From: Actinomycetes bacterium
Lineage (GTDB): Bacteria; Planctomycetota; Phycisphaerae; JAACET01
Reading direction: 5' to 3'
NCBI GenBank assembly: GCA_030614915.1
Contig: JAUXAG010000002.1
Location: 62,001-126,000 of the forward strand
Length of the DNA: 64,000 bases
The notes below the pieces were generated by a model, which was not told where the DNA came from, did not search any database, and saw nothing but the letters and a program-made list of their open reading frames with translations. The position numbers and the translations under genes were made by a program. This document shows positions 43,178 through 50,827 of this stretch, in pieces. The stretch's first letter is position 1; every line of letters starts with the position of its first letter.

Positions 43178-43184
43178 GAATAAC

Positions 43185-44681
43185 GTGCGTACAAGGCAAC
43201 CGCATCACATCGGGGCCCTCACTGTCCTGTTGGCCTGTTTGGCTGGGACGGTTGGTTGTGCCCCCAAGCAGATATTCCCGACCGCATACACCACCACAGC
43301 GACCGGCAATGATACACTCGAGCAGCGGGCATACGATACCGACCGCGACGGCCGAGACGACTACTACCAGCACCTCAATGAGCACGGCAGAGTAGTCCGC
43401 TTGGCCTTCGACCAGGACCGGGACGGCACCATTGACCAGCAGGTCGATCTCGACGAGTTCGACCTGGCCGATTGCCGCCAGCTCTACATCCTCCTGGACG
43501 GCGTGCCTTACCAGATGATCGCCGACATGTACGACCAGGGTTATTTCCGCCTCTTCCATCGACCCAGCCGATTGATCAGCACCTTTCCATCAATGACCGA
43601 CGTAGCCTTCGCCGAGGTCTTCGACTTATCGCCCGTATTGGCTTACGAGGCAGGCTACTACGACAGGGGCGATGCCAAACTCCACAACGGCAACAGGGTC
43701 TACCTCAGTGGCAAGAACGAGCCTTGGAACCAACGCCTCGACTATCGCAGCCGCATGTGGATGGACGCCGTGGCCTACGTTTGGCCTAAGTGGTGGCTCG
43801 ACCATGAACTCCGGGCCATCCTCAGCAAATACCGCGAATCCGACAACAAACGCATCTCCGGATACAGCGTATCCAGCACTTGCCTGGGCACCAACGACGG
43901 CGCCGAAGGCTATCGCCAGGTTCTACTCCAGCTTGAGCAGATCTGCCAGGCCGCCATGTTCGCCTCAAAAGGTAAGGTAAAGATCACTGTTTTTTCCGAC
44001 CACGGACATAATCTCATCGCCTCCAAGCCCCTGCCCCTCAAGGACCTGCTCGAGGAATCGGGTTTTAGAGTAGTCAGTAAGCTCAAAGGGCCCAAAGACG
44101 TGGTCGTCCCCCAGTTCGGTCTGGTGACCTACGCCTCGATCGAAACCTTCTGCCCGGCCGAGGTCGCTTCGGCCGTCGTCCGGATGCAGAGCATAAACCT
44201 CGCTATGTACAAACTCGACCAAGGCAGCGTCGTCGTCCTGGACCGTTCAGGCAAGGCCCTGATTACCAGGCAGGCCAACCGTTATCGTTACCACTGCATT
44301 CACGGGGACCCACTCAAGCTCAGTCCCGTGCTCGCCCAGCTGGGCGAATCCGGACTGCTGGATGAGCACGGCTACGCCCACGACGCCGACTGGTTCGTCG
44401 CCACCTGCCGCCATGAATATCCCGACGCCCTGGCTCGCATATGGCGGGCCTTCCATGACCTGGTCCAAAACACCCCCGCTGTCGTCGTAACCGCCAAGGA
44501 CGGCTGGTACTTCGGCAAAGGCAAATTCGACTTTTTCGTGGATGTGGCCAGCACCCACGGCTCGCTCAATTATATCAACTCGGTTACTTGCGCCATGACC
44601 ACCGCCGGCCAACTCCCACCCGACCTTCGCTTGGCCGAGTTGTTCAAGGCTTTAGCGGATTTAGGTCTGGAACCACCCTAG
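43185..44681 (+). CDS. exported alkaline-phosphatase-superfamily-like protein with Ca-binding repeats
   Basis: A 498-residue protein starting at GTG, seven bases after the glycosyltransferase stop. It has a signal peptide with a hydrophobic core (LTVLLACLAGTVG) and a cysteine at residue 26, a weak lipobox. Two calcium-loop motifs follow (DTDRDGRDDYY near 47, DQDRDGTIDQQ near 71). After that the fold resembles the alkaline-phosphatase / nucleotide-pyrophosphatase superfamily: LDGVPYQMI near the start, PSMTDVAFAEVF, and VFSDHGHNL near 270. The usual DGxR-type nucleophile pattern is altered (LLDGVPY), so the activity is uncertain. A periplasmic hydrolase working on a phosphate ester is a reasonable guess. 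Confidence 0.6.
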   Translation: MRTRQPHHIGALTVLLACLAGTVGCAPKQIFPTAYTTTATGNDTLEQRAYDTDRDGRDDYYQHLNEHGRVVRLAFDQDRDGTIDQQVDLDEFDLADCRQLYILLDGVPYQMIADMYDQGYFRLFHRPSRLISTFPSMTDVAFAEVFDLSPVLAYEAGYYDRGDAKLHNGNRVYLSGKNEPWNQRLDYRSRMWMDAVAYVWPKWWLDHELRAILSKYRESDNKRISGYSVSSTCLGTNDGAEGYRQVLLQLEQICQAAMFASKGKVKITVFSDHGHNLIASKPLPLKDLLEESGFRVVSKLKGPKDVVVPQFGLVTYASIETFCPAEVASAVVRMQSINLAMYKLDQGSVVVLDRSGKALITRQANRYRYHCIHGDPLKLSPVLAQLGESGLLDEHGYAHDADWFVATCRHEYPDALARIWRAFHDLVQNTPAVVVTAKDGWYFGKGKFDFFVDVASTHGSLNYINSVTCAMTTAGQLPPDLRLAELFKALADLGLEPP

Positions 44682-44708
44682 ATTTCTCAATCAACCTTTC
44701 GCGACTCT

Positions 44709-44870
44709 TCAATCATCTTTATCTTCTTCCTCATCATCGTCGTCTTCCTCCTCTTCCTCTTCGCGCAGTCTTTCCTCGTACGCCAGACGTTCTGCCCGCT
44801 CCTGCAAATACTTCACAAAATCCTCCGCAGGAAACCTCTTCCCTTTGAGAATCCCCGCCTCGATTTATTC
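44709..44870 (-). pseudogene. displaced 3'-end copy of the HAD-lipoprotein gene
   Basis: This minus-strand segment repeats the 3' end of the gene at 47418-48539. From 44757 to 44855, 99 bases are identical at an offset of 2,691 bases; up to 44870 there are two mismatches. Translated, it gives IEAGILKGKRFPAED and the arginine/glutamate-rich tail, then an acidic end longer than that of the intact gene (DDDDEEEDKDD). The codon CAA for Gln in the intact copy is TAA here, so even the fragment cannot be read through. It ends at TGA 44709-44711. It is the left border of the ABC island. Confidence 0.85.
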
Positions 44871-45832
44871 TAGCAACTGTCTGCGCTTCCGGTAACCTCA
44901 AGAAAGTGCTTTTCGAGGCTGCGGCTTTGGGTGAATTTGCGCGGGGTGATACCCATATCGAGCAGTTTGCGCAGCAGAGCCCCGATGATGGCATCCTGGT
45001 CATGGGAGATATCGAGTGTGACCAGATAGGACGCTGATCCCACTGACCCATTGGCAGTGACGACGGCCATTGACCTGATGTCGCGCAGGCCCGTGAGGGA
45101 GTTCAGCCGTTTCACCTCGCCGTCTTGTAGTGGCCGCGACAGCTCCAGGTCGTACTCGCAGTCAGCCCGAGTGATGTCCTCAACGGAGCCGGCGAAGACA
45201 AGCTTGCCCAGGTCAAGGATCGCGACGTAGTCGCAGAGTTCCTGTATCTCTGTGAGGTTGTGAGAACTAACCATGATGGTGGCGCATTCCTGAAGTTTCT
45301 TAATAAGGTCCCGGGTTTGGTGGGCACTGGCGGGGTCCAAGCCGGCAGTCGGTTCGTCGAGCAGAATAACTTCGGGGTGCCCAAGGAATGCTTGAGCGAT
45401 GCCGAGACGTTTGATCATTCCGTGCGACAGCGTGCCGACGCGACGTTTGGCGACTGATTCGAGGCCGACCAGCTCCAGGGTCTGCATGACCTCCTTTGTG
45501 GCCTCCTGACGCGTGCGGCCGCCGAGCAGACGGAAGAACACAAGTTGATTGAGGATCGGCACATTCCGTTGAAACGCGGCATCTTGCGGAAAGATGCTCA
45601 AGCGGCCCCGCAACTGGGAAATGCGGCGGGTATCAATGCCGAGGACCTCGACGCTGCCGGCATTGGCCTTGAGGAAGTTGGCGACCAGCGAAAAAAGTGT
45701 CGTCTTGCCGGCACCGTTAGGGCCGAGCAAGCCGAAGATGGATCGCGGCGGAACGTCGAAGGTTACCGAATCGAGAGCCTGGATGCGACCGAAGCTCTTT
45801 GAAATCCCATTAATGCGTATCGTGTGCACCAC
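44870..45832 (-). CDS. ABC transporter ATP-binding protein
   Basis: A 320-residue ATPase of the ABC-2 exporter type. Walker A is GPNGAGKTTL, the signature is TLSHGMIKRLGIAQ (LSHGM in place of LSGGQ, common in this subgroup), and Walker B is EVILLDEPTAGLDP, followed by the H-loop in MVSSHNL. The C-terminal 90 residues form a regulatory domain. It starts with GTG. Its stop codon TAG straddles the left repeat junction: T and A belong to the island and G to the repeat, so the original C-terminus may have been slightly different. The permease gene is 9 bases upstream, so the two are one exporter. Confidence 0.93.
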   Translation of the reverse strand: MVHTIRINGISKSFGRIQALDSVTFDVPPRSIFGLLGPNGAGKTTLFSLVANFLKANAGSVEVLGIDTRRISQLRGRLSIFPQDAAFQRNVPILNQLVFFRLLGGRTRQEATKEVMQTLELVGLESVAKRRVGTLSHGMIKRLGIAQAFLGHPEVILLDEPTAGLDPASAHQTRDLIKKLQECATIMVSSHNLTEIQELCDYVAILDLGKLVFAGSVEDITRADCEYDLELSRPLQDGEVKRLNSLTGLRDIRSMAVVTANGSVGSASYLVTLDISHDQDAIIGALLRKLLDMGITPRKFTQSRSLEKHFLEVTGSADSC

Positions 45833-45841
45833 AGGTTTTAC

Positions 45842-46759
45842 CTATAGATCGCGTGTTTCAAAACGGTAATAGCCCAAAAAGAGAAAGACCAGCATATATC
45901 CCAGGCAGGCCAACGCTGTCCCCAGCGAATAGGTCAGTTTGGGGTGGAGCAGATGGTTCTGAAGTCCCCAGGGCAGTGCGTAGTTGAGGTATATCGCTGG
46001 CTTCCAGACAAGGCTTCCAAGCAAGGCAAAAAGCCAGACACCGCCGATGACCACTTTGGCCAATACCAGTGAGACAAACGCCGAACCGACTGACGCTGAA
46101 ATCCACGAGCAAATAGCAATGTACGGCAGCATGAGCACAGATAGGGCGAGGAATCCGTGCAAAGCCCAGGCAACAAGCGGTCCGGCAGAATATATTTTGA
46201 TGTTAACGCCCAGATAGAAAGTGATCGTAGCGATGATGATTGCTATGACCAAGGTCGAGAAGAAAGCTGTTCCAAGAAATCGGCCAATGAAGATATTGGC
46301 CCGTTCGGTTCTCAGAAGGAGGTAACGCAGACCGCGGTTTTGCACATCGCCAGCGATCTGGTTAAAGGCCAGGAAGGAAATCAGCAAGGGCATGCCGAAC
46401 AGCAGGATGAGAAATATGACCGAGAGTAGGGCGGGCCGATCGTCGAGTAGAAATGTTGTCCACGGGTCGCTGGACGCAGGAGAGTTCTCATCCGACTCGA
46501 TGCCTAATGCCCATTGGATCACGGGTCGCCCCCGTTTGACGATTTCAGCGACGACCTCCTTGGGATCGGGCTCCTGCCCGGCTTTGGCCTGCTGGGCCAT
46601 TACCTGCTCGATGGGGGCCAGGACAGCCTGTGCGACGGTAAGGCCGAAGACCAATGTAATCATGAGAAACACAAGCCCGGCCCCGCCTCGCAGCGTGTAA
46701 CGAGTCCGGTAAAAGCTGATCAGGCGTATGTGGCTGGCGCTGACGTCCCTCAGGCTCAT
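45842..46759 (-). CDS. ABC-2 type transporter permease
   Basis: A 305-residue membrane protein with six hydrophobic segments, the first near residues 24-50 (GAGLVFLMITLVFGLTVAQAV). It contains a large soluble loop after segment 1 (residues about 50-105) with EVVAEIVKRGRPVIQWALG. DVQNRGLRYLLLRT is the typical cytosolic element of ABC-2 permeases (NRG-LRYLL). Such permeases export lipids, peptides, drugs or polysaccharide. The substrate is unknown. It shares the island with the ATPase (9-base gap) and a small membrane protein (45-base gap). Confidence 0.88.
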   Translation of the reverse strand: MSLRDVSASHIRLISFYRTRYTLRGGAGLVFLMITLVFGLTVAQAVLAPIEQVMAQQAKAGQEPDPKEVVAEIVKRGRPVIQWALGIESDENSPASSDPWTTFLLDDRPALLSVIFLILLFGMPLLISFLAFNQIAGDVQNRGLRYLLLRTERANIFIGRFLGTAFFSTLVIAIIIATITFYLGVNIKIYSAGPLVAWALHGFLALSVLMLPYIAICSWISASVGSAFVSLVLAKVVIGGVWLFALLGSLVWKPAIYLNYALPWGLQNHLLHPKLTYSLGTALACLGYMLVFLFLGYYRFETRDL

Positions 46760-46804
46760 CTAGTCAAGCTCCATACGCCGCAAAAGGATGGTAGATCGAC
46801 GTAA

Positions 46805-47260
46805 TCAGTTGGTGAGGTCCTCCTTGAAGGTCGTGTTCAGCAGGATAAGGGTCAGTACAGGGTAGATGAAGCCGATGATAGCCCCGATGGTAAATCCTCC
46901 GCCAATTTCAGGCTTCATCATCACCGCAGAAACGATACCGATGATAATTGCAAGTACTGCATATGCATTACCCAAAGTGCGGCCCATGAATTTCTTCTGT
47001 TTTATATAGCCGATGCCGGAGATGAGCAAAAGGATACTTGAGACAGCCGACACCGCGAGCAGACAGATGAGCATAGGCCGACCTATGGCCTGGATGGCTT
47101 CCAACTGGGTGCGGGCCTGTTCATCCATATTCTCGGCTAGCTTCCCGAAAACGACAATCATGGTGATCATGCCCATGATACCGAGCAGTCCCCAACCCGA
47201 GAAGATGAAGTTCAAGACTGCCAGTGCCGTTAGTCCGCCGGGACGTTTTCCTTCATTCAT
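46805..47260 (-). CDS. small four-helix membrane protein of unknown function
   Basis: A 151-residue protein from ATG 47260, preceded by AAAGGA; a longer frame to 47323 is charged and lacks a ribosome-binding site. Four hydrophobic segments are visible: ALAVLNFIFSGWGLLGIMGM, the segment with LLAVSAVSSILLLISGIGYI, AYAVLAIIIGIVSAVMM and IGFIYPVLTLILL. No motif was recognised. As first gene of the ABC island it is probably coexpressed with the exporter and could be an accessory subunit or immunity-type membrane protein; this is inference from position. Confidence 0.65.
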   Translation of the reverse strand: MNEGKRPGGLTALAVLNFIFSGWGLLGIMGMITMIVVFGKLAENMDEQARTQLEAIQAIGRPMLICLLAVSAVSSILLLISGIGYIKQKKFMGRTLGNAYAVLAIIIGIVSAVMMKPEIGGGFTIGAIIGFIYPVLTLILLNTTFKEDLTN

Positions 47261-47417
47261 TGCAATGTCCTTTCTTTTTGCACGCGATTTCCTGACCTTT
47301 GACTCACGATCCCCGTGGCCCACTCGCTGGTGATTCTAGCATATCCATGAAATTTTTCAAAGCCTGTTTTTGCATTTAAACTTGCTTTCAGCCCTGATGC
47401 CTTTGCTGTAAGCGTGA

Positions 47418-48539
47418 TTAATCGTCGTCATCCTCTTCTTCCTCCTTCTCTTCGCGCAGTCTTTCCTCGTACGCCAGACGTTCTGCCCGCTCCTGCAAAT
47501 ACTTCACAAAATCCTCCGCAGGAAACCTCTTCCCTTTGAGAATCCCGGCCTCGATTTGTTCCCAATTCTTCACCACCTGCAATCGCCCCCGACCCTGCAG
47601 TTCTCGGATGCTCTCAGCCATTTTCCGCATATCCTTGGCCTTTTCCTTGTAGTGTGGCAGTAGATAAGCCTTCATCCCGTTATCAACGTAGGCCTGGGCA
47701 TCGGAGGGTTTATCCCCGATACCGATCTGGATACCAGGAAAGCGTTTTCTGGTAAGGGCCAGTTCACTGCTCTTGAACTTACCGCTGCCGGCCAAAGCCT
47801 CCTTCAGTTCACTCAGCAGTAAAGGCCCCTTCGGATAGCCCTGCTTGCTCAGCCATTGCTTGCTTTTGCGGCTCAGAAGTTCCGGCCTTTGGGTCAGGTA
47901 GATAATCCCATATTTTTCCCCTATTGCCTTTGTCACCCTCAGCGAGTCGGGCATGGGCTTGGCCCCGCCTATAAGCACCCGAAAAAAGCTGCTCCCCACC
48001 ACCGTGTGATCCAGGTCGATTACCACAAAGGCGGTCTTCTTTTCCCGCACAGCCACCAGCAGCGGCGCAGCACTCACCTCCAGCAGGTCTTTGTAGTCCT
48101 TATTCGGCACGTCATCGATTTTGGCCTGGAGCGAATAGTTCCCCGCTTTGCTCGGCTTCCAGGAAATGGCCGCTCGGCCCTGGTTGTCCGTCCGGGCCCT
48201 GCCGATAAGTTTCGACCCCTCGTAGAATCCCACGCTCACACCCGGTACATCCTCCAGCATCTTCGCCAGTTGCACCTTTGCCGCCAGCTCCACCGGCTCA
48301 TTCGGATAGCTCAAGGCATCGTAGGCGTAAAAGATTACCCCCTTCTCAGCTCCCAGGAAAACCCCCCCGGCCACATCGCTGACCATGTCCTGCCAGCCGC
48401 CCTTGCGTCTTTGCGGAGTCTGATACGAGCGTTCATCGCTTTGGGCTTGCTTGTCGGCCTGGATCTCATCATTCGATTTGCCACAGCTTGCCAGCAGCAA
48501 AACACAAGTTAAAATGCTAATGAATCTCTGAGTTCTCAT
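47418..48539 (-). CDS. HAD-family lipoprotein, DUF2183/App1-like phosphatase domain
   Basis: A 373-residue lipoprotein from ATG 48539 with GGAGAT upstream; the frame extends to 48716, but the lipoprotein signal MRTQRFISILTCVLLLASCG (lipobox LLASC) marks the start. An Ig-like domain occupies about residues 100-175, then a HAD-like phosphatase domain begins with FVVIDLDHTVVGSSF (D-x-D-x-T) and has IYLTQRPELL and IGIGDKPSDAQAY. This resembles the App1/DUF2183 phosphatidate phosphatase catalytic domain. The C-terminus is very charged (EERLREEKEEEEDDDD). It is probably anchored in an envelope membrane, acting on a phospholipid or another phosphate ester. Its 3' end is duplicated at 44.7 kb. Confidence 0.8.
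   Translation of the reverse strand: MRTQRFISILTCVLLLASCGKSNDEIQADKQAQSDERSYQTPQRRKGGWQDMVSDVAGGVFLGAEKGVIFYAYDALSYPNEPVELAAKVQLAKMLEDVPGVSVGFYEGSKLIGRARTDNQGRAAISWKPSKAGNYSLQAKIDDVPNKDYKDLLEVSAAPLLVAVREKKTAFVVIDLDHTVVGSSFFRVLIGGAKPMPDSLRVTKAIGEKYGIIYLTQRPELLSRKSKQWLSKQGYPKGPLLLSELKEALAGSGKFKSSELALTRKRFPGIQIGIGDKPSDAQAYVDNGMKAYLLPHYKEKAKDMRKMAESIRELQGRGRLQVVKNWEQIEAGILKGKRFPAEDFVKYLQERAERLAYEERLREEKEEEEDDDD
47421..47562 (-). repeat. right copy of the duplicated gene 3' end
   Basis: This is the copy inside the intact gene. Positions 47448-47546 are identical to 44757-44855. Outside this core the acidic tail codons have diverged by small insertions and substitutions. Confidence 0.85.
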
Positions 48540-48778
48540 AGGTAAATCTCCGGTATCCAAGCCCTTCCTGCTGCGGTCATGACTTGTCTGAGCCCATTGT
48601 GCCCCGGGCGTAATTCTAGCCGATCCGGGCCCCGGATTCACGAAATCCTTCCCGTTTTTCCCCCCGGCACTTGCCCCGCCCAAAATCGCCCAGACCGAGC
48701 CATTGCATTTGGCCACCCGCCTGTATATAATTATTCATAACATATTTAAGGTCCAGCCATTCTTGGGAGGGTAATGCC

Positions 48779-49621
48779 ATGAAATCCTATCTTAGAGTTG
48801 TTTCTATCGTCTTGCTCGTCTGTGTACTTTTCGCTCCGGGCTGCACCATAAATCCAGTTACCGGCAAAAAGCAGTTGACCCTGATCCCTCCGTCCGAAGA
48901 GATCGCCCTCGGTGAGAGGACTGGGCCAGAGTTCGAAAAGGAATTCGGCGGAAAAGTCGACAGCCCACAGCTCCAGCAATACATCGCCGAGGTCGGAGCC
49001 AAACTCGCCGCTGTTTCCGATCGGCCGATGCCTTATGAATACGCTTTGCTCCGTTCCGACGTTCCCAACGCCTTTGCTCTGCCCGGAGGGAAAATATACG
49101 TTACCGCCGGACTGTTCAGGCATATGACCAACGAACGCCAGTTGGCTGCCGTTTTAGGCCACGAAACCGTTCACGTTGCCGCCAAGCACAGTGTTCAAAG
49201 CCTTCAGAACCAGATGGGCGCTGCCATATTCGCCGAGCTGGTCGGTGTTATCGTTGGCGGCGAAAGCGCCCAGAGCGCAGAGGCCGCCACCAGGTTATTC
49301 GTTGCCGGCATGGTTAATCTTCCCTATAGCAGAGAGCATGAATCCGAAGCCGACGAGTTCGGCCTGAAATACATGGACCGCGCCGCCTACAATCCCTGGG
49401 GAATGGTCGAACTGCTGGAATTGCTCCAGAGCCTTTCGCAGTCCAAACCCGGATTGTTTGGCGATCTCCTTGCCACTCACCCCCTGACCAGCAAACGAAT
49501 CGAAGACGTTCGAGACATCATCGCCAAGGATTATTCCGCCTATTCTCCCCAAATGCCCGAGCCGCACGGCCAACGCTTCGAGCAGATGCGCAGGCTCATG
49601 GAGTCCGCAACCAAAAAATAG
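48779..49621 (+). CDS. M48-family metalloprotease lipoprotein
   Basis: A 280-residue protein. The signal ends in a lipobox-like FAPGC (Cys22), followed by TINPVTGKKQLTLI, typical of the LoiP/YcaL and BepA-like group. The zinc site is VLGHETVHVAAKHS (HExxH near residue 124), with third ligand in EHESEADEFGLKYM. PNAFALPGGKIYVTAGLF is the substrate-strand motif. These enzymes degrade misfolded outer-membrane proteins in the periplasm. GGGAGG precedes the ATG. It diverges from the HAD lipoprotein gene across 239 bases. Confidence 0.94.
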   Translation: MKSYLRVVSIVLLVCVLFAPGCTINPVTGKKQLTLIPPSEEIALGERTGPEFEKEFGGKVDSPQLQQYIAEVGAKLAAVSDRPMPYEYALLRSDVPNAFALPGGKIYVTAGLFRHMTNERQLAAVLGHETVHVAAKHSVQSLQNQMGAAIFAELVGVIVGGESAQSAEAATRLFVAGMVNLPYSREHESEADEFGLKYMDRAAYNPWGMVELLELLQSLSQSKPGLFGDLLATHPLTSKRIEDVRDIIAKDYSAYSPQMPEPHGQRFEQMRRLMESATKK

Positions 49622-49684
49622 GCATGTTTGGCGAAACTCCTTTTCGCCACTCCTGTGGTACCAATGGCTGTTCTTCGGGCCGCT

Positions 49685-50089
49685 CTATTGGCCGCCGGCC
49701 TTTTGCCCAGCTAGCTTCTCCACCTTCGCTGAGAGAACATCGAAGTCGATCGGCTTTTCCAGAAAATCCTGTACCGGCATCCAGGTCTCGTCGATATCAC
49801 CTGGTCCAAAGCCCATCGGGAACTTGGTGTTGATCGCCGAAAGAATCAAAATCGGCAGTCTGGTCAGCGTTTTGTGTTTGCGAATCTCCTGGGCCAGGTG
49901 AAAACCAGCCGCCGCATTTTCCGGGAACATGACATCCAGCACCAGCACCTCATGAGGCTCCCGCTCGAGCTTGTCGATAACCTCTTCCGTATCATAAATA
50001 GCCGTTGTCTGGTGACCTCTATGCTGGAGCACACGGCAAATTGAATCCATGAAATCTCGATCGTCGTCAACGATCATTACCTTGGCCAT
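49685..50089 (-). CDS. single-domain response regulator
   Basis: A 134-residue stand-alone receiver. AKVMIVDDDRDFM supplies the acidic pair, EVLVLDVMFPENAAAG the phospho-acceptor aspartate, and DFLEKPIDFD the conserved lysine. An insertion after the acceptor loop (FPMGFGPGDIDETWMP) resembles that of receivers found beside redox or hydrogenase systems in other bacteria, but none is here. It may relay phosphate to other proteins. AGGAGG lies before the ATG on the minus strand. It is isolated beside a gene desert. Confidence 0.92.
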   Translation of the reverse strand: MAKVMIVDDDRDFMDSICRVLQHRGHQTTAIYDTEEVIDKLEREPHEVLVLDVMFPENAAAGFHLAQEIRKHKTLTRLPILILSAINTKFPMGFGPGDIDETWMPVQDFLEKPIDFDVLSAKVEKLAGQKAGGQ

Positions 50090-50827
50090 ATTTGCCCTCC
50101 TTTGAAAATATCCACCCGCGACCGACGAGCTTACTCGACTTTTCGCTAACAGACCGCTTGTCCAGTCCTAAGCATACATATCGCAGCGGATTTGTCAAAG
50201 CCATCGCTGGGCGAACTTGCACAAGAACGACCGCAGCCCCCCAAAAAAGTCCCGTTCCTTGGCCTCAATAAGACCGCCCATCGGCAACAGCTATGGCAAA
50301 GACCGCCTGCCACTTGGGTAAGCTGAGGGGGACAACCTACCCGTGGTGGTGACAAGCGGCCTTATAAGCTCTGTGACAAGCCCCGCTGGCGGAAATCAAG
50401 CTGATCGCCGAGAGCAAGGCAAAATTTTATCTACTTTGGTCTCCACCTCAGCAGGCTAAACCTGCGAACAGCACCAGCCCCAGCGCCGCCGGCTCTGGAA
50501 TGATTCGGCAGGACGGGGCATCTCCCGTTAAATCTCCCCAGACTACTGTTGTCGCCCCTCTCCATCCCAACTAAGTAAGTCTAGCACAGCTCACTCATAG
50601 AGTCAAACACTAAATCAGCAAAAACAGATGGATATTTGCTATTCTGGGTTCAATAGTATCGAATCCGCGTAATGATTCGTACAAGGTTTATCCTATTTAT
50701 TATTCGCCTTGAACTTGGCTCAGTCTGAACCCTGCTGCTCTGCCAAGCGAAGGGGCTGTCGCCCCAGCTCAAGAGAGCCGACGAGGACGTCTCGGCGATT
50801 CCTGTAGCAAGCTGAATGAGAGTCAGG
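50090..50827. other. gene-poor stretch
   Basis: 738 bases without an intact gene. The only recognisable coding trace is the PEP-CTERM remnant at 50448-50570. A GGGGC/GCCCC hairpin lies near 50750-50765 without a T-run. A 69-codon minus-strand frame at 50146-50355 is cysteine-rich and implausible. Confidence 0.6.
50448..50570 (-). pseudogene. C-terminal remnant of a PEP-CTERM protein
   Basis: On the minus strand, between an in-frame TAG (50573-50571) and TGA (50450-50448), 40 codons read LGWRGATTVVWGDLTGDAPS, then CRIIPEPAALGLVLFAGLAC. The second half is the PEP-CTERM sorting signal: IPEP motif then a hydrophobic helix; the usual basic tail is missing, with the stop directly after the helix. 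The first half (TVVWGDLTGD) resembles the short linker and calcium-binding start seen before this tail in planctomycete secreted proteins. No start codon or full gene is present, so this is a decayed gene end. Confidence 0.55.

Follow-up and report, generated by a model that had tools for sequence, protein, structure and literature searches.

The window, by which we mean the whole stretch of 64,000 nucleotides that was analysed, contains a locus where the 3' end of a lipoprotein gene occurs twice, on either side of three genes for membrane transport (Table 1). These three genes, encoding an ABC ATPase, an ABC2-type permease and a small membrane protein, all have one orientation and correspond to the three cotranscribed transport genes that the initial annotation had noted. 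The small membrane protein gene has its first start codon at 47323, but the ATG at 47262 is the more likely start. The lipoprotein gene is intact and its product carries the lipobox LLLASC. Its earlier assignment to the HAD family stands, although the matches are weak and are of the LNS2/APP1 phosphatidate-phosphatase type, and the right copy of the repeat is indeed the 3' end of this intact gene.

Table 1. Features of the locus (positions in the window).
Feature	Position	Strand	Remarks
Convergent neighbour gene	43185..44681	+	same neighbour in G001
Left copy of the repeat (orphan HAD gene end)	44709..44870	-	repeat core 44731-44870
ABC exporter ATPase gene (DrrA-like)	44870..45832	-	dN/dS ~0.22
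ABC2-type permease gene	45842..46759	-	dN/dS ~0.17
Small membrane protein gene	46805..47262	-	found with the ABC pair throughout the phylum
Promoter-like site upstream of the ABC operon	47333..47360	-	weak; chance expectation gives about as many
Right copy of the repeat (authentic end of the intact HAD gene)	47418..47561	-	tail and 3' flank match G001
Intact HAD-family (LNS2/APP1-like) lipoprotein gene	47418..48539	-	373 aa; dN/dS ~0.17 vs G001
M48 peptidase gene, other neighbour	48779..49621	+	same in G001; adjoins a glycosyltransferase gene in G002

The two copies form an ungapped direct repeat of 140 bp (44731-44870 against 47422-47561) with 93.6% identity and an E-value of about 1e-55. The identity of 99 bp that had been reported within it (44757-44855 equal to 47448-47546) proved exact on recheck, and from there up to 44870 the mismatches are just two, at 44856 and 44867. 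No other such repeat between separate sites occurs in the 64-kb window, and the whole source genome, a draft of 36 contigs, holds two copies of the repeat, both of them at this locus. The left copy adjoins the ABC ATPase gene, beginning right at the TAG stop codon of the latter, and it had been rightly described as a 3' fragment with a nonsense codon: its HAD frame holds one TAA. What the initial annotation overlooked is that the fragment has an in-frame acidic tail and a stop codon of its own (TGA at 44709-44711), located 28 bp beyond the stop of the convergent gene. This acidic tail is not a copy of the right-hand tail, although the bodies of the two copies are near-identical.

The comparison within the genus covered three species in all, the source genome (G000), G001 and G002, each represented by a metagenome-assembled genome. 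The sister species G001 (record DAOVKO010000046.1) shows the same gene order, from the convergent gene through the ABC trio and a single complete HAD gene to the M48 gene. There the convergent gene is separated from the stop codon of the ABC ATPase gene by 127 bp, and no HAD end is detectable in this gap; a decayed remnant of the left copy was considered and rejected, the local alignments being no better than those of shuffled sequences. Over a body of 114 bp the left and right copies differ from each other at 2 sites and each of them differs from G001 at 11, while 10 sites unite the two copies against G001. Therefore, the duplication, or a later homogenisation of the copies, postdates the split of the species. 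The right site is the original one, because its tail and 3' flank match those of G001. In G002 the M48 gene directly follows the glycosyltransferase gene; the convergent gene, the ABC trio and the HAD gene, together the equivalent of window positions 43178-48778, are missing there as one block. Since all of these genes are absent at once, G002 does not represent a clean empty site. The G001 record is titled 'Actinomycetes bacterium', which is odd beside the PEP-CTERM and queuosine-type genes of the genus, and it is possibly mislabelled.

Genomic islands of the tyrosine-recombinase type can integrate at the 3' end of a gene and restore that gene. Our locus resembles them in having a gene end at both borders and an intact target gene, but it differs from them in that there is no recombinase, fixed core or empty site, and the supposed cargo is present in G001 without the repeat. 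The absence of a recombinase nearby had been stated before and is borne out by the contig, where the closest phage-integrase domain is about 100 kb away. As only ABC transport genes lie between the repeats and no recombinase gene lies in or beside the element, an integrase-type island was rejected; an RNA element or tRNA as the target was rejected as well, since no tRNA or Rfam RNA was found near the repeat. The gene end at the far border does fit the layout of an island, but the divergence makes the copy younger than the ABC operon here.

The initial annotation had offered two readings, a one-time duplication and a passenger of an unrecognised mobility mechanism. The first is the better supported and the second did not hold up in the comparison with the sister species: in G001, too, the ABC trio lies here between these neighbours, but with only one gene end and without the left copy. 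An empty site with a single gene end, which had been expected of relatives in the case of an island, was not seen, as G001 has the ABC genes and G002 lacks everything, and no relative in the genus carries different cargo between the same repeats. Because G001 has the operon at this place without the copy, the footprint of a new kind of mobile island is unlikely and an ordinary local duplication accident is the most likely explanation.

The ABC trio can be understood apart from the repeat. Many genomes of the phylum have its homologues grouped together; in these places no HAD gene accompanies them and no repeats flank them. Thus the trio is an ordinary, independent operon, and the notion that it forms a repeat-flanked unit elsewhere was rejected. 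Its permease was found in none of the 58 genomes of the same class that were searched outside the genus, which suggests that the trio may have entered the genus horizontally; such an arrival would be an event separate from that of the repeat and older than it. The minimal mobile elements of Neisseria, as defined in PMC3082526 after Saunders and Snyder (2002), are likewise small gene cassettes between conserved neighbours and have no mobility genes, but at our locus an alternative cassette was not seen, the ABC trio being the only one in the few available genomes of the genus.

We consider that the left copy originated by partial gene duplication, made once in this lineage after its split from the sister species, and we give this reading a probability of roughly 0.55. 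A second, partial copy that is absent from G001 and little diverged from its parent copy is consistent with such an origin. About 140-160 bp of the 3' end of the lipoprotein gene would have been copied in the same orientation, presumably from the HAD gene of the same chromosome, and would have landed in the short gap that follows the stop codon of an already present ABC export operon. The likely route would be illegitimate recombination or template switching, mediated by a short sequence that the two sites share. A plausible short junction is seen when CGACTTGTTC, which lies beside the ABC stop codon in G001, is compared with CGATTTGTTC in the HAD gene (9 of 10 positions shared); the G001 sequence serves here as a stand-in for the pre-duplication sequence of our species, and the similarity could equally be the stub of a deleted remnant. 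The enzymology of the copying is what we infer from this picture.

The partial duplication has a weak point in the left tail: plain copying of the right tail does not yield it, while the body is almost identical. The left acidic tail may have been altered by slippage or template jumps in its purine-rich low-complexity stretch. In another genome of the class, G534, two HAD ends that are 96% alike are set apart by a long tail expansion; thus low-complexity tails vary fast in the HAD family, and slippage or template jumps can explain the left tail. With partial duplications by illegitimate recombination or template switching the locus shares a short piece placed nearby, the direct orientation, a junction of few bases and the absence of a mobility gene, and it is unlike them in the exact placement of the piece at a stop codon and in the altered low-complexity tail. 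This kind of event is already known and the locus, if read in this way, is another instance of it. The left copy needs no function; at most, a read-through transcript of the convergent gene would carry antisense to the HAD mRNA.

The main rival explanation reverses the roles of the two parts: the ABC segment would have been imported by recombination and the left copy would be the recipient's own original gene end. We regard such an import as possible, if rather doubtful. It would account for the in-frame acidic tail and the stop codon that the left copy has to itself, right beside the convergent neighbour, and the absence of the ABC genes in G002 is in line with it. The import could have taken place in the common ancestor, where the ABC segment arrived with a HAD 3' end of its own, the left copy being subsequently lost in G001 and homogenised in our species. 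Alternatively, an ABC-less conspecific strain could have taken up a segment of HAD end and ABC genes, with one junction formed by homology in the HAD gene and the other by microhomology beside the ABC stop codon. Homology-facilitated illegitimate recombination (summarised in PMC6382021) would yield such a pair of junctions, and this pair is what the import needs. However, the left copy is not recognisable in G001, no strain was found that has the HAD gene at this place and lacks the ABC genes, and the near-identical bodies would then presuppose that gene conversion took place recently or that an unseen strain was involved. The synonymous divergence from G001 is 0.17-0.20 in the ABC and HAD genes against 0.43-0.49 in the neighbours, which points faintly towards an import, but the divergence profile is patchy and extends outside the block. 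When window positions 43640-50486 are compared with the G001 locus (L033), the ABC and HAD genes diverge by about 6.5%, the M48 gene by about 17% and parts of the convergent gene by up to 29%; this uneven divergence along the contig hints at recombination tracts.

It could also be argued that the left copy is what remains of a decayed tandem paralogue of the lipoprotein gene, the rest of which was lost or replaced by the ABC genes. Such decay would leave only a 3' end with a nonsense codon, and several genomes of the class do have paralogues of the HAD gene. Yet the copies, with 2 differences in 114 bp, are too alike to predate the ABC operon, which G001 shares, and G001 has no such remnant. 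The comparison with G001 thus largely refutes the tandem paralogue, and we hold it to be very improbable. Two full-length diverged lipoprotein genes, the arrangement that the initial annotation had named as speaking against an insertion, were not seen in the relatives either.

We assign a similarly small chance to an assembly artefact, in which strain variants of the metagenome-assembled genome would have been joined in one contig. The draft state of the genome would permit it, but the left copy is set apart by bases and a tail of its own, its junction is clean with few bases shared at either side, and both outer flanks are orthologous to G001. With its two direct copies of about 140 bp, one of them at the 3' end of a gene, the locus also recalls the template and variable repeats of a diversity-generating retroelement, or some other retro-copying system. 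This origin is so improbable that it can practically be neglected: the mismatches in the body are not at the adenines of either copy in the coding sense, and the one reverse transcriptase that the genome was found to encode is located on a different contig, with no copy of the repeat near it. The retroelement was rejected, as its defining features, adenine-specific mismatches and a nearby reverse transcriptase, were not found. The single reverse-transcriptase gene is located at G000:C35:262693-263235 (about 494 aa).

The HAD gene end is accompanied by a partial copy in a distant family of the class as well. In G042 the HAD gene is followed by a gene of 160 aa and then by 65 bp that repeat the HAD 3' end and have a stop codon of their own, and G515 has the same arrangement with a remnant of only about 28 bp; the cargo is in both cases unrelated to the ABC trio. 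The flank after the G042 remnant is the flank that directly follows the intact HAD gene in G534. This similar layout with other cargo in an unrelated genus speaks against the duplication at our locus, and the same anatomy with the native flank after the remnant speaks in favour of an import. The G042 remnant is as close to the HAD genes of congeners as to its own, which indicates an old event of that genus, and a search of viral contigs for the 160-aa gene found none. About 40 other HAD loci in the class show no such remnant. The orphan C-terminal fragments in G549 and G050 were rejected as contig-edge cuts of a paralogue. In a control with 516 ORFs in 670 kb, the HAD gene was the only one with clear orphan partial 3' ends on the same strand (2 of about 44 loci); since the window case was the one that chose the HAD gene, this excess is not convincing and only suggestive.

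It might be proposed from these cases that the purine-rich HAD 3' end is a recurrent, recombinase-free hot spot of breakage and insertion in the class, where small operons and defence genes would repeatedly settle by one-sided homology and leave a second gene end behind. We think that such a hot spot is unlikely, and to the same degree we doubt that the ABC operon here and the 160-aa gene of G042 and G515 are two independent cases of it. The HAD loci that show no remnant, the contig-edge cuts, the hairpins of G553 (see below) and the partial duplications elsewhere on our contig all speak against it. The similar anatomy in G042 and G515 keeps a weak island reading for the HAD gene family, not for this locus. 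Defence-type genes are found downstream of the HAD gene in three genomes of this distant family, namely a PD-Lambda-2-like gene in G042, PDC-S06 in G505 and a GmrSD/NsnA-like gene in G534, and in G534 a HEPN-nucleotidyltransferase pair lies downstream of a second HAD 3' end, which is situated at a contig edge. The defence-type genes at this position vary within the genus g34 and G534 (these observations come from the regions L070 12874-14900, L130 1602-4536, L133 2771-3931 and L134 3724-6128).

If the event was an ordinary one, the locus is a clear case, open to dating, of a gene end that was copied to a place next to an unrelated operon, as well as a warning that a gene end on both sides is by itself no proof of an island. 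If, on the other hand, the hot spot were true, it would mean recombinase-free capture of cargo at the end of a protein-coding gene, with defence genes among the cargo in a related family.

A direct repeat at the HAD gene end of G553 was rejected as a parallel case, as it consists of REP-like hairpins beside a RAYT-like transposase gene. This hairpin repeat of 82 bp stands directly after the HAD gene and again 0.8 kb further on (L139 6739-7659; L138), and the congener G475 has different DNA at this site.

The contig of our locus carries further partial duplications in which the HAD gene is not involved, and these lend support to a partial duplication at the locus itself. Outside the window, at G000:C1:161759-165012 (L228 15759-19012), half of a tRNA-Gly(TCC) gene is duplicated together with its upstream flank 1.7 kb away, with a PEP-CTERM protein gene in between, and the partial copy is itself split by a pair of helix-turn-helix and Fic-domain genes. 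A transposase-like gene (rve integrase core) has a second, fragmentary copy of its 5' end 1.3 kb upstream (G000:C1:652-765 and 1915-2028).
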